This document shows positions 3,397 to 6,651 of a stretch of DNA of 10,677 bases, one piece after another. Position 1 is the first letter of the stretch, and every line of letters begins with the position of its first letter. The stretch covers positions 1-10,677 of the forward strand of contig JASJBO010000219.1 in assembly GCA_030066475.1 (NCBI GenBank), written 5' to 3'. The notes beneath the pieces were generated by a model, which ran no database searches, was not told the DNA's origin, and saw only the letters and a program-made list of their open reading frames with translations. A program made the position numbers and the translations under genes. The DNA is from Myxococcota bacterium (lineage in GTDB: Bacteria > Myxococcota_A > UBA9160 > PR03).

Positions 3397-3903
3397 TCAG
3401 GCCGCCTCGTCGCGGCGCCGTGACCGGGCCGCCGCGCGGATGCGCAGCCTCCGCAACAGCGACAGGCGGTCGACGAAGAGCTTCCCGTCGAGGTGGTCGA
3501 TCTCGTGCTGGAGACAGACCGCCTCCATCGCGACGAGCTCGCGCTCGAAGGTGGCGCCCGTGCGATCCTGTGCGCGCACCTTCAGCTCGGTCGCGCGCAC
3601 GACGTTGGCGACGACGCCGGGCACCGAGAGACAGCTCTCTTCCACGAGCCCCGGAGTGGACTTCGACCGGATCTCGGGATTGACGTAGACCTGCGGGGCC
3701 GAGGCGTCGCCCGAGAGGTCCATCACCAGCACGCGGCGCCGATCGTCGACCTGGGGCGCCGAGAGCCCGATTCCCTTCGTGGCGTACAGGGTCTCGATCA
3801 GGTCCTCGACGAGCCCGTCCAGCTCCGCATCGAACCGGTCGACCGGACGCGCGCGCAGCCGAAGCCGCGGGTCCGGGTACTCGAGGATCGGACGGAGCGC
3901 CAT
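3397..3903 (-). CDS. def: Peptide deformylase
   Basis: Metal-dependent hydrolase of 168 residues that removes the N-formyl group from new proteins. All three family motifs are visible: GIGLSAPQ (44-51), ESCLS (89-93, metal ligand Cys91) and QHEIDH (132-137, metal ligands His133 and His137, catalytic Glu134). Motif 2 has Ser where nearly all deformylases have Gly (EGCLS). The C-terminus (about 150-168) is very Arg-rich. The ATG has a perfect AGGAGG site five bases upstream that overlaps the stop codon of the preceding pucC/lhaA gene, so the two are translated from one message. A deformylase at the end of an antenna operon is unusual; whether it is the main cellular copy or a specialised second one cannot be told here. 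Confidence 0.95.
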   Translation of the reverse strand: MALRPILEYPDPRLRLRARPVDRFDAELDGLVEDLIETLYATKGIGLSAPQVDDRRRVLVMDLSGDASAPQVYVNPEIRSKSTPGLVEESCLSVPGVVANVVRATELKVRAQDRTGATFERELVAMEAVCLQHEIDHLDGKLFVDRLSLLRRLRIRAAARSRRRDEAA

Positions 3904-3912
3904 GGAGACCTC

Positions 3913-5364
3913 CTAGGACGTCGTTCGTTGCTTCATGAAGAGGGCGCCGGCGCCGGGAGCGTCGCGGTCGCCCCGGCGAGAGATCAGCGAGATCGTGGCG
4001 GCGATCGTCACGAGCAGCAGGGAGATCTCCAGGGCGTAGACGGTGACGTAGCCGCTGGCGGAGCCCGGCAGGCCGAACAGCTCGCGTTGGCCGGCGGCTG
4101 CGTTCACCACATCGCGGATCGGCCCACTGAGCGCCATGCCGGCGCCGGCGGCAGTCGCCTGCACGGCACCCCACGCACCCAGGGCGAGACCCGCCTGCTC
4201 CTTGGGAGCCTCCTTCATCGTGATCGTCAGCGTGCCGTGCCCGAAGGCGGCCGCGCCGAAGCCGACCGCGAAGTTTCCGACCAGGAAGAGCAGCGGCTGC
4301 TCGAGCGGCGCGGCGGCGATGACGAGAGCGAAGGCCGGCAGCCCGACGACGGCGCCGTTGCGGGTCATCCGGTACGGGTCGGCGCCGCGGCCGAGGACGT
4401 AGGCGGCGAAGCCGAAGCCGGTCAGGCCGCCGAGGGCCAGCAGGGCCGTGAGCTTCGTCGTGCTGGCGACCGAGAACCCGAGCACGTGGCCCCCGAAGGG
4501 CTCGAGCAGGATGTCGGCCATCCCGAACGCCATCGTGCCGACCCCGACGATCACGAGCCGGCGAACCGCATGCTCGCCCGCGCAGAAGTGCGCCCACGCC
4601 TCCAGGAAGGTGGGATCCGCAGCCGGGGCCGCGGCCCCGCGCGGCGGACGCCGCGTCTCCTGCTTCCACATCGCGACGGCGTTGAGGACCAGGGCCAGGA
4701 CGGCGGCGCTCTGGATCACCTGCACGAGCCGGCCGGGCGAGAAGTCCGTCAGGGCAGCCCCGAAGGCCAGCGCGCTCACCATCATCCCCACCAGGAGCGT
4801 GACGTACATCAGGCCGACCACTCGCGGATGCGACTCGGTCGGCGTGAGGTCGGTGGCGAGCGCCAGCCCGGCGGTCTGCACCGTATGGGAGCCAGCCCCC
4901 ACGAGGAGAAAGGAGACGGCGGCGGACAGCTGGCCGATCCACGCCGGAGCCGAGTCGGCCTGGCCCTTCCCGGCGAGCACCAGCAGGGCGAAGGGCATGA
5001 TGGCGAAGCCGCCGAACTGCAGGAGCGTCCCCCGCCAGAGGAACGGCACGCGGCGCCAGCCCAGCTCGCATCGATGCGTGTCGGAGCGGTGCCCGATGAG
5101 CGCGCGGAAGGGCGCGAACACGATCGGCAGCGCGACCATCACGCCGACGATCGTGGCCGGCAGTCCCAGCTCCACGATCATCACGCGGTTGAGCGTCCCG
5201 ACGAGCAGGACCATCGTCATGCCGACGGAGAGCTGGAACAGCGAGAGTCGCAGCAGGCGGCCCAGCGGAAGATCCGCGGTCGCCACGTCCGCGAAGGGAA
5301 GGAAGCGGGGCCCGAGCGAGGCCCACGCCCCCATCAGCCTCTGCCGGAGTCCGCCTACGTCCAT
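3913..5364 (-). CDS. pucC: PucC/LhaA-family antenna assembly protein (BCD family, MFS fold)
   Basis: Polytopic inner-membrane protein of 483 residues with about twelve hydrophobic segments. The family is thought to deliver bacteriochlorophyll to, or assemble, light-harvesting complexes. Signatures include PRFLPFADVATADLPLGR (19-36), SLFQLSVGM, GTLNRVMIVELGLPA, FAPFRALIGHRSDTHR (83-98), GWRRVPFLWRGTLLQFGG, VVGLMYVTLLVGM and GNFAVGFGAAAFGHGT. I chose the ATG at 5364 because it places the family N-terminus correctly; the frame stays open to 5472 with a basic, Cys-rich leader that overlaps the previous gene and looks non-coding. The ribosome site is weak, so translation may depend on the upstream genes. 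Sequence alone does not separate LhaA (LH1) from PucC (LH2); the pucBA genes just upstream favour PucC. It is 9 bases from def. Confidence 0.93.
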   Translation of the reverse strand: MDVGGLRQRLMGAWASLGPRFLPFADVATADLPLGRLLRLSLFQLSVGMTMVLLVGTLNRVMIVELGLPATIVGVMVALPIVFAPFRALIGHRSDTHRCELGWRRVPFLWRGTLLQFGGFAIMPFALLVLAGKGQADSAPAWIGQLSAAVSFLLVGAGSHTVQTAGLALATDLTPTESHPRVVGLMYVTLLVGMMVSALAFGAALTDFSPGRLVQVIQSAAVLALVLNAVAMWKQETRRPPRGAAAPAADPTFLEAWAHFCAGEHAVRRLVIVGVGTMAFGMADILLEPFGGHVLGFSVASTTKLTALLALGGLTGFGFAAYVLGRGADPYRMTRNGAVVGLPAFALVIAAAPLEQPLLFLVGNFAVGFGAAAFGHGTLTITMKEAPKEQAGLALGAWGAVQATAAGAGMALSGPIRDVVNAAAGQRELFGLPGSASGYVTVYALEISLLLVTIAATISLISRRGDRDAPGAGALFMKQRTTS

Positions 5365-5437
5365 GCCGTCGCCGCGTGGGTCTGCCTGGGTGCCGCCCCT
5401 CTCTGCTCGGCGTGGAGCGGCATCCGAGACCCCTTCC

Positions 5438-6127
5438 TCAATCGCGATCCTTCTTCTTCCTCGACAGCACACGCAGGCCGAAGAGAGACGAGATGGGCGT
5501 CGGGTTTCGCGACAGCAGCGACAGGCCGAAGCTCGTCTTCTTGTCGCTGCGGAAGCTCGAGAGCGGCTTGAGCCGAAGCAGCGACGAGAGGGGCGTCGGG
5601 TTCTGGCTGAGCAGCGGGATTCCGAAGCTCGATCGCTTCGACGTCTTGGAGGCAGTGAGCGTCTTCAGCCCGAGGAGCGACGACAGGGGCGCCGGGTTTC
5701 GCGATGCCACCGACGGCTCGCCGAACGTGTACGGGATGATGGACAGATCCGTCATCGGAGAGTAGTCCGCCAGGACCGGCAGTCCGAGCATGTCGGAGAA
5801 CGGCGAAGGGTTTCGCGACGTGTGGGCCGGCATCGCTTCGGTCTCCACCGGGCCATGCTCTTCCAACAGCACGGTCGCCCTCTGGCCCGCACCGAACGGG
5901 GCGCTGACCGACACGATGGAGCGTCCCTGCTGGAGCCCCCCGGTGCAGACCGAGGCGTGACTGGCCGGAAGCTGCCCCGCCTCGATGGTGGCGCGGACGA
6001 TCGCCTCCGCCTCGCCGCCTGCCGCGGAGGTCAGGATCGCGACCCCGCTGAAGCCCGCCTCCTCGAGGGCCTGTGCCGCATCTCGGGCCTGCTGTTCCGA
6101 CGGATACATCCGTACGATCGGGAACAC
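5438..6127 (-). CDS. Unrecognised antenna-operon protein with four SRNPxP repeats
   Basis: Encodes 229 residues; function unknown. The GTG start has a strong GGAGGTG site (6132-6138). Residues 1-95 look like a small alpha/beta domain (RMYPSEQQARDAAQALEEAG, then QGRSIVSVSAPFG), loosely like general-stress-protein (YflT-type) domains. Residues 104-229 contain four repeats starting at Ser104, Ser142, Ser174 and Ser206, spaced 38, 32 and 32 residues. The core reads S-[RQ]-N-P-x-P-[LFI]-S-[SD]-[LM]-[LF]-x-L; units 2 and 3 add a Lys/Arg cluster and SFGxxLL. The tail is Ser/Pro/Lys-rich, with no signal peptide or membrane helix, and ends in a basic RKKKDRD. It lies 97 bases after pucA and 73 before pucC, the place where small LH2 stabilising genes might be expected. 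I infer a cytoplasmic scaffold or assembly factor with several short binding motifs; this is a hypothesis. Confidence 0.8.
   Translation of the reverse strand: MFPIVRMYPSEQQARDAAQALEEAGFSGVAILTSAAGGEAEAIVRATIEAGQLPASHASVCTGGLQQGRSIVSVSAPFGAGQRATVLLEEHGPVETEAMPAHTSRNPSPFSDMLGLPVLADYSPMTDLSIIPYTFGEPSVASRNPAPLSSLLGLKTLTASKTSKRSSFGIPLLSQNPTPLSSLLRLKPLSSFRSDKKTSFGLSLLSRNPTPISSLFGLRVLSRKKKDRD
5495..5818 (-). repeat. Tandem coding repeats, about 96-base unit
   Basis: Four in-frame units begin at 5818, 5704, 5608 and 5512 on the minus strand, spaced 114, 96 and 96 bases. The DNA is conserved as well as the protein: TCGCGAAACCC opens units 1, 2 and 4, while unit 3 has diverged. Unit 1 is the longest and least regular and unit 4 is cut short by the stop, which suggests duplication followed by drift. 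Confidence 0.85.
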
Positions 6128-6170
6128 GTGTCACCTCCATGGTCCACGCGAGTAGCGGGATGGGAGCTTT

Positions 6171-6202
6171 CCTGCGGGCCGGCACGGCGTCCGACCCGCA
6201 GG
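6171..6202. repeat. GC-rich stem-loop between pucA and the repeat-protein gene
   Basis: CCTGCGGG (6171-6178) pairs with CCCGCAGG (6195-6202); after one mismatch, three more pairs form inside (6180-6182 with 6191-6193), leaving an 8-base loop. On the minus-strand message it is followed by AAAG, with no U-run, so it is unlikely to be an intrinsic terminator. Hairpins at this place in puf and puc operons are known to protect the antenna mRNA and raise its level over downstream genes; that role is inferred here. Confidence 0.6.
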
Positions 6203-6224
6203 AGTCACTCCGACAGGACCAGGT

Positions 6225-6371
6225 CTACCCCCCCTGGAAGAAGGCGGGGAACCAGGTCGTGTTGTTCAGGACGGCGAAGTGAACGATGAACGAAATCGCC
6301 GCTACGCCGCCGAGGAACAGCGGGAGGCCTACGGTCGGCTTCACCACACACCAGATCCTTCCTTGATTCAC
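6225..6371 (-). CDS. pucA: LH2-type antenna alpha polypeptide
   Basis: A 48-residue membrane peptide of the peripheral light-harvesting complex. The N-terminus [12 protein letters not shown], His31 in IVHFAVL (ligand of the B850-type bacteriochlorophyll) and the end [11 protein letters not shown] align without gaps to LH2 alpha of Rhodoblastus acidophilus; LH1 alpha peptides look quite different. Positions 44-45 are Phe-Phe, whereas B800-850 LH2 has Tyr-Trp and B800-820 LH3 has Phe-Leu. Those residues hydrogen-bond the B850 acetyl groups, so a blue-shifted complex is expected. The peptide stops right after GG48, without the usual short basic tail. The start is GTG at 6371, with GGAGGG (6376-6381) four bases upstream, 10 bases after the pucB stop. 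Met1 is the residue that, in modified form, ligates B800 in known LH2. Confidence 0.95.
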
Positions 6372-6381
6372 GATGCCCTCC

Positions 6382-6573
6382 TCAGCCGAGCCACGGCGTA
6401 TAGATGTACGCGAGGAAGTGCGCGAACAGGGAGATCACGAAGAACACGCGCGCGCCGTCGATGACGTGCTTGTGCAGCTCCTCGGATTCCCGGATGGTGA
6501 GACCGGTCGGCCAGATCCGGTCCGGATCGTCCAGGTCGGCCGTCTGCTGCCTGGCCCCTAGCGGTTCGGCCAT
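6382..6573 (-). CDS. pucB: LH2-type antenna beta polypeptide
   Basis: A 63-residue single-helix antenna peptide. The core [17 protein letters not shown] followed by AHFLAY and TPWLG is that of LH2 beta. His52 (AHFLA) is the ligand of the B850-type pigment, and His34 (ELHK) and Arg42 (GAR) correspond to beta-His12 and beta-Arg20 at the B800 site of R. acidophilus, so a B800 pigment probably binds. Residues 1-24 form an acidic N-terminal extension about 20 residues longer than the R. acidophilus peptide (about 41 residues). It ends in Gly rather than His. The ATG has an AGGAG site seven bases upstream. It is the first gene after the regulatory region at 6592-6729 and is followed at once by pucA, the standard beta-alpha order. 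Confidence 0.95.
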
Positions 6574-6591
6574 GTCTCCTCTCCTACTGCC

Positions 6592-6614
6592 GGAGCCGCC
6601 TCGAAGCGGGCTCC
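6592..6614 (-). promoter_or_regulatory. Stem-loop in the pucB leader, near the start codon
   Basis: GGAGCC (6592-6597) pairs with GGCTCC (6609-6614), leaving an 11-base loop. It lies just upstream of the AGGAG ribosome site of pucB on the predicted leader RNA. It may stabilise the message or tune initiation; no known riboswitch is recognised. Confidence 0.4.
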
Positions 6615-6634
6615 GTCACTGATTGTCGGACCTC

Positions 6635-6651
6635 CGGGAAGACCTTTCCCG
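6635..6651 (-). promoter_or_regulatory. Stem-loop at the 5' end of the pucBA leader
   Basis: CGGGAA (6635-6640) pairs with TTCCCG (6646-6651) around a 5-base loop. It falls a few bases downstream of the expected transcription start, so it would cap the 5' end of the antenna mRNA, a common way to slow decay. The structure is read from sequence; the role is inferred. Confidence 0.4.

Follow-up and report, generated by a model that had tools for sequence, protein, structure and literature searches.

A repeat-tailed protein encoded in an LH2-type antenna operon of a Myxococcota bacterium and its possible relationship to LH2-gamma

Gene organization of the antenna operon

The window, the 10,677-nucleotide stretch of Myxococcota DNA analysed here, carries a minus-strand series of genes in the order LH beta, LH alpha, X, pucC and def (Table 1). 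Protein X was described in the original prediction as a 229-residue protein encoded between an antenna alpha gene and pucC, and this open reading frame is confirmed, with all of these genes on the minus strand. The true start of pucC probably lies downstream of position 5472. The plus strand contains pufM (a Photo_RC match) and puhE. Two further plus-strand ORFs are putatively named pufL (its end, 46–399) and pufC because tblastn matches of both flank PufM in loci L019, L020 and L025.

The antenna pair is treated as LH2 because LH2 proteins are the best matches to both chains among solved structures; for the beta chain, the best-scoring solved LH2 structures come from the Rhodopseudomonas palustris entries that contain LH2-gamma. 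The NCBIfam model NF040862 assigns the beta chain to LH1 with a score barely above the cut-off (62.3 versus 61 bits). Set against the LH2 relatives and the gene context, this name is possibly a naming error for the subtype. The closest locus to the window is L001 (a Myxococcota MAG by title), where the identities of LH beta, PucC and X are 89, 78 and 58%, respectively.

In addition to the window, def follows pucC in 21 of the 28 X loci described below (L001–L017, L022 and L024–L026). Because a modified alpha-chain Met1 (Cxm) ligates B800 in Rps. palustris LH2 (PMC9618040), a dedicated deformylase might, by analogy, prepare the Met1 residue of LH2 alpha that ligates B800.

Table 1. Features of the antenna operon and protein X in the window, with repeat proteins of a Rhodobacteraceae MAG
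Feature	Position	Strand	Remarks
LH2-type antenna beta, 63 aa	6382..6573	minus	PF00556; best solved relatives 7ze3_B and 7zdi_B (E 5.7e-24 and 2.1e-23)
LH2-type antenna alpha, 48 aa	6225..6371	minus	PF00556; best solved relative 7ze8_A (E 2.5e-19)
GGAGG of X, Shine-Dalgarno-like	6134..6138	minus	direct reading of sequence; six bases 5' of GTG
Protein X gene	5438..6127	minus	GTG start; 229 aa; N-domain and 16-residue repeat tail
N-domain, residues 1–95	5843..6127	minus	beta-alpha-beta-alpha-alpha-beta-alpha in AF2 model, pLDDT about 96
Unit 1, residues 106–121, NPSPFSDMLGLPVLAD	5765..5812	minus	PSSM 32.0
Unit 2, residues 128–143, weak, contains YTFGEPSV	5699..5746	minus	16-residue register by Gly 137
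Unit 3, residues 144–159, NPAPLSSLLGLKTLTA	5651..5698	minus	PSSM 35.3
Unit 4, residues 160–175, SKTSKRSSFGIPLLSQ	5603..5650	minus	PSSM 22.8
Unit 5, residues 176–191, NPTPLSSLLRLKPLSS	5555..5602	minus	PSSM 30.2
Unit 6, residues 192–207, FRSDKKTSFGLSLLSR	5507..5554	minus	PSSM 7.6
Unit 7, residues 208–223, NPTPISSLFGLRVLSR	5459..5506	minus	PSSM 36.3
pucC ORF	3913..5472	minus	PF03209, E 1.9e-142
def, peptide deformylase	3397..3903	minus	directly after pucC; PF01327, E 3.4e-45
Repeat proteins without N-domain, Rhodobacteraceae MAG	L061:7499-7813; L059:7016-7402; L060:7120-7911

Architecture of protein X

Protein X is composed of an N-terminal domain (N-domain) and a tail of short repeats. The N-domain, anticipated in the original prediction as alpha/beta-like, is predicted to be alpha/beta at high model confidence, with a fold that is loosely YflT-like, PII-like or CutA-like and from which no function follows. 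Fold comparison gave weak matches to PII/GlnK and to CutA; the PII and CutA families are trimeric. The likeness to YflT consists of weak profile matches to the N-domains of some family members (PF11181 in 18 of 41 at E ≤ 0.5, best 6.1e-5), and a PF11181 profile search gave no match in X of the window itself. YflT proteins are not known to have an X-type repeat tail.

The X gene is real and its repeats lie far beyond chance. At the DNA level, three 52-nt copies are spaced by exactly 96 nt (32 residues), and the self-similarity of the tail (residues 104–229) peaks at a lag of 32, 10 SD above shuffled sequences, with a value of 2.9 SD at lag 16. Lags of 16, 32 and 48 are strong across 116 family tails, and the basic unit is therefore 16 residues, not 32. 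The 32-residue unit of the original prediction thus holds for the 96-nt spacing in the DNA, and at the sequence level it reads as two alternating subtypes of the 16-residue unit. A secondary lag of 38 in the window tail (4.6 SD) is no multiple of 16 and equals the step from unit 1 to unit 3.

The tail contains seven 16-residue units, six of which (residues 128–223) are in tandem register. A unit profile with the outline N-P-[AT]-P-L-S-S-x-[FL]-G-[LM]-P-x-L-S-R was built from 120 listed homologues, and the threshold of the resulting PSSM was placed at 4.1, the 99.95th percentile for shuffled tails. Scores in X lie between 7.6 and 36.3 for six units. Unit 2, which had been overlooked, falls below the threshold and gives no match, although it is in register and its Gly 137 is nearly invariant in the family. 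The motif S-[RQ]-N-P-x-P-x-S-S-L-L-x-L, originally described in four copies, is exact in two of the four; the other copies read SRNPSPFSDMLGL and SRNPTPISSLFGL. For the two intervening basic stretches with SFGxxLL the description holds, and both fall into the 16-residue register as units.

Proteins of the X family contain 3–10 units. The unit-to-unit spacing is exactly 16 in 350 of 627 family intervals, and the other 277 include 65 of 17. The tail of X is modelled by AF2 at low confidence (pLDDT 51–69). Five-residue helices in this model give a weak hint of the NP-capped helix that had been proposed for each motif, whereas LH2-gamma, described below, is extended.

The X family and its association with antenna genes

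A protein search with X returned 169 matches at E ≤ 0.1, and no Pfam domain is found among the 120 listed; the family is previously unannotated, as had been suspected. A genome scan, using a pattern drawn from the repeat and not from gene position, located 28 X loci, all in MAGs by title, from Myxococcota, Alpha- and Gammaproteobacteria or groups within them. Homologues of LH beta/alpha and pucC adjoin X in 25 of these loci, across distant taxa and in three gene orders: LHb-LHa-X-PucC (16 loci), X ahead of the LHb-LHa pair and not beside pucC (six loci) and LHb-LHa-PucC-X (three loci). The three exceptions are L018, where the sequence stops about 230 bases after X; L027, a partial match from the same genome as L019; and L028, a paralogue in G027, whose third repeat gene adjoins pucBAC. 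LHC genes are present in all 27 source genomes. The outcome named beforehand as counting against an antenna role, with most homologues in non-phototrophs or distant from antenna genes, did not occur: they lie mostly in phototrophs, beside antenna genes.

Some genomes contain more than one X gene (two in G324, two in G338 and three in G017; loci L088, L063–L065 and L089–L090), and several of these genes adjoin LH2 genes. A Rhodobacteraceae MAG encodes three short repeat proteins that lack the N-domain and have a wider unit spacing of about 25 residues (Table 1). One is divergent from pucBAC and two carry a C-terminal RQIVTGEVQK. Among 248 genomes of the Rhodobacteraceae family sample, such proteins occur in one, its centre.

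The genes of 31 X loci were aligned (31 X sequences, 30 each of PucC, LH beta and LH alpha, and 26 of def). X is a fast-evolving protein relative to its operon neighbours: its mean pairwise identity is 37%, and that of each LH chain is 72%, of PucC 67% and of def 56%. The distances of X follow those of LH beta (rho 0.65) and PucC (rho 0.63), with 0 of 500 permutations as high in each case, and also those of LH alpha (rho 0.47) and def (rho 0.57). Because X tracks def as well, its co-divergence with the LH2 genes may be explicable by shared operon descent alone. The correlation with PucC would suit an assembly factor, as would the gene position: of the 28 loci, 16 have X between LH alpha and pucC, and three others have it next to pucC. 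Such a factor would act with PucC during LH2 assembly, holding alpha and beta chains or supplying pigment, and would not be part of the mature ring. We consider such a role improbable, since X lies ahead of the LH beta–alpha pair and away from pucC in six loci, its correlation with PucC is no higher than that with LH beta, and assembly of this kind needs no regular 16-residue period.

As a control, evenly drawn genomes were searched to avoid sampling X-bearing loci only. Three samples comprise 525 genomes: the class of G004 (190), the order of G017 (195) and the phylum of G001 (140). Absences in these samples are not exhaustive, because scoring covered only some of the initial candidates in each genome. 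In the class of G004, LHC genes occur in 17 genomes and X profile matches in 11. Eight of the 11 matches extend past the N-domain, all with an LHC pair within about 0.6 kb, and one of the eight, in G121, shows a single recognisable unit; G004 (the centre), G013 and G026 were already in the first scan and the other five genomes are new. The remaining three (G071, G147 and G172) match the N-domain only and have no LHC genes. Nine of the 17 LHC genomes have a single LHC pair, eight of them without X and one, G124, with X beside the pair. G153 carries an additional pair, of the LH2 type, and no X was found in this genome.

In the order of G017 (a MAG titled Chromatiaceae), LHC genes are present in 77 of the 195 genomes and X in four, all four with LHC genes. 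An LH2 alpha of the window type occurs in three genomes of this sample, each of which contains X; in the fourth X genome, G408, the sequence is cut off inside X. Within this order, X goes with one LH2 subtype and not with LH2 in general. The phylum of G001 yielded LHC genes and a full X in a single genome, the centre, and N-domain-only matches in four others.

Over the three samples, 13 of the 525 genomes encode the N-domain together with X-type units. Every one of these 13 belongs to the 95 genomes with LHC genes, and the 430 LHC-less genomes include none. The combination was not found in 82 of the 95 LHC genomes, indicating that antennae can do without X. Homologues with the N-domain only occur in seven sampled genomes, all without LHC genes; these are open frames of 232–443 residues (L092–L095 and L071–L073). 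The antenna-linked part of X is therefore the X-type units and not the N-domain.

These N-domain-only homologues, and an N-domain weakly YflT-like by profile and PII-like by fold, would be expected of a YflT/PII-type regulator or stress protein that lies in the antenna operon by chance and has a disordered appendage as its tail. We regard this as highly improbable: it is the X-type units that track the antenna genes, and the repeat proteins of the Rhodobacteraceae MAG, one of them beside pucBAC, have no N-domain. The repeat tail is an antenna-linked module, as proposed (25 of 28 loci, 27 of 27 source genomes and 13 of 13 sampled genomes with LHC genes), and its docking on the antenna, the core idea of the original prediction, appears well supported genetically.

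Possible relationship to LH2-gamma and a candidate LH2 belt

The membrane antenna LH2 has been studied extensively and is generally described in terms of alpha and beta chains. LH2-gamma of Rps. palustris (RPA1495, UniProt Q6N9P5; PDB 7zcu, 7zdi, 7ze3 and 7ze8) was reported in 2022, and only from Rhodopseudomonas (PMC9618040). It is described there as a ribbon near the cytoplasmic side that encloses six of the nine alpha–beta pairs, with six repeats that each place a Ser on a BChl for Mg ligation (PMC9618040). LH2-gamma and X share 16-residue tandem repeats (the Gly residues of LH2-gamma are spaced by 16 in five of five intervals), a Gly followed by P-L-[IL] in register (NPAPLSSLFGLPLLSR versus QEGEYKGFSGTPLILK) and an association with LH2, which for X is one of genetic linkage. 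The position of the Mg-ligating Ser is mostly Phe or Leu in X, with Ser or Thr in 10 of 747 X units, and pigment binding of the gamma type is therefore unexpected, although X may possibly use another pigment ligand.

A direct hhalign comparison of LH2-gamma with the X family was negative (probability 2, E 0.024). When the gamma unit is rotated along the X profile, one rotation scores far above the others, but its p against permuted columns is 0.065. Three bridge proteins (P0123, P0124 and P0125) were found by searching with LH2-gamma and then with its relatives. At the end of P0123, NPTPLSSYLGLKVLSN (X score 34.3) comes after two gamma-type units, with Gly spacings of 16 and 16. P0124 and P0125, from separate archives (ena and jgi) and 83% identical, both match the X N-domain over its second half (HMM E 8.6e-7 and 4.4e-9 among 3603 targets), and this match is independent of the repeats. 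In their tails, an X-like unit (16.4) precedes gamma-type units spaced by 13 or 16; the tails end in an X-type unit (35.9 and 32.8), and its Gly follows the last gamma-type Gly by 16 residues. In hhalign, the bridge matches the X family with an E of 1.1e-20 and LH2-gamma matches the bridge with an E of 3.8e-19, values that are inflated, as single comparisons of thin alignments and repetitive sequence. Through these intermediates, X appears to be related to LH2-gamma. Because two features of LH2-gamma are lacking in X, we do not file X as LH2-gamma but treat it as a related variant.

P0124 and a gamma-like protein, P0126, are both listed at 27,188 bases and are presumably from one contig; this genome may have chimeric X–gamma and gamma-like forms close together. 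The X protein of G173 (L078:6939-7625) has a row of shorter units, YILGEPKLISKRHIFGEPKLNSNKHIFGEPGL, that by eye are midway between the X and gamma types.

Our preferred reading, which we consider moderately probable, is that X is an LH2 belt tied to a cytoplasmic domain and free of gamma-style pigment ligation. X would be a cytoplasmic accessory subunit of LH2 whose tail forms an extended ribbon on the outer, cytoplasmic rim of the ring, like LH2-gamma, with each 16-residue unit docking onto one alpha–beta pair. The N-domain, attached at the ribbon's end, would remain cytoplasmic and may oligomerise or bind another partner. The belt could make the ring more stable, tune the B800 site or set the distance between rings; the extra bacteriochlorophyll binding of LH2-gamma is probably absent. 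We infer physical binding to LH2, the ratio of one unit per alpha–beta pair, the topology and the function of X from sequence: the LH2 ring, one of the partners named in the original prediction, is the likely partner because of the genetic linkage, and the belt geometry is suggested by the shared 16-residue register.

In G121, an X-like protein (L076, complement of about 6100–6636) has the N-domain and a single unit, NPTPFSSLFKIPLLSK (score 34.9). Its gene adjoins LH2-type genes and pucC, and it is difficult to see how one unit could form a belt. A full belt would thus not be general, since the number of units varies from 3 to 10 and G121 has one that is recognisable.

A multivalent linker could also be built from many similar units, with spacings other than 16 in 277 of 627 intervals (17 in 65 of them), a tail modelled at low confidence and an N-domain resembling the arrangement of the trimeric PII and CutA families. 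Its units would dock on different LH2 rings, or on both LH2 and the core complex, packing antennae into arrays, with X perhaps oligomerised through the N-domain, by analogy with the packing of Rubisco by EPYC1 and CsoS2. We judge this unlikely, since LH2-gamma, the precedent with apparently related repeats, wraps a single ring (PMC9618040), and six units of the window protein in a 16-residue register are close together for separate rings.

An extension of the belt reading, plausible but short of probable, is that X represents a widespread and perhaps ancestral LH2 belt, of which LH2-gamma is a trimmed, derived member. The ribbon would then be purely structural, with one 16-residue unit for each alpha–beta pair and a cytoplasmic domain that couples each ring to its neighbours or to a signal. 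LH2-gamma would have gained its extra B800 pigments later, by a single hydrophobic-to-Ser change in every unit.

If X is a belt, then belts occur in Myxococcota and two proteobacterial classes, beyond the one genus to which the published belt was said to be limited (PMC9618040). They would go with an LH2 subtype and carry a cytoplasmic domain. By moving a single gene, one could then test the size and spacing of rings and how the extra pigment sites arose.

EPYC1 and CsoS2 are Rubisco linkers with tandem short motifs in a flexible chain, a design that X shares. The original prediction compared X with these linkers and regarded a linker of this type for purple-bacterial antennae as not known; the closest relative appears instead to be LH2-gamma, a ribbon round a single LH2 ring (PMC9618040), which provides a precedent in the antenna itself. 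LH2-gamma consists of 97 residues and is a ribbon only, whereas X carries an additional 95-residue N-domain that is predicted to be folded. The partner of EPYC1 and CsoS2 is soluble Rubisco, and X bears a closer resemblance to a ring belt.
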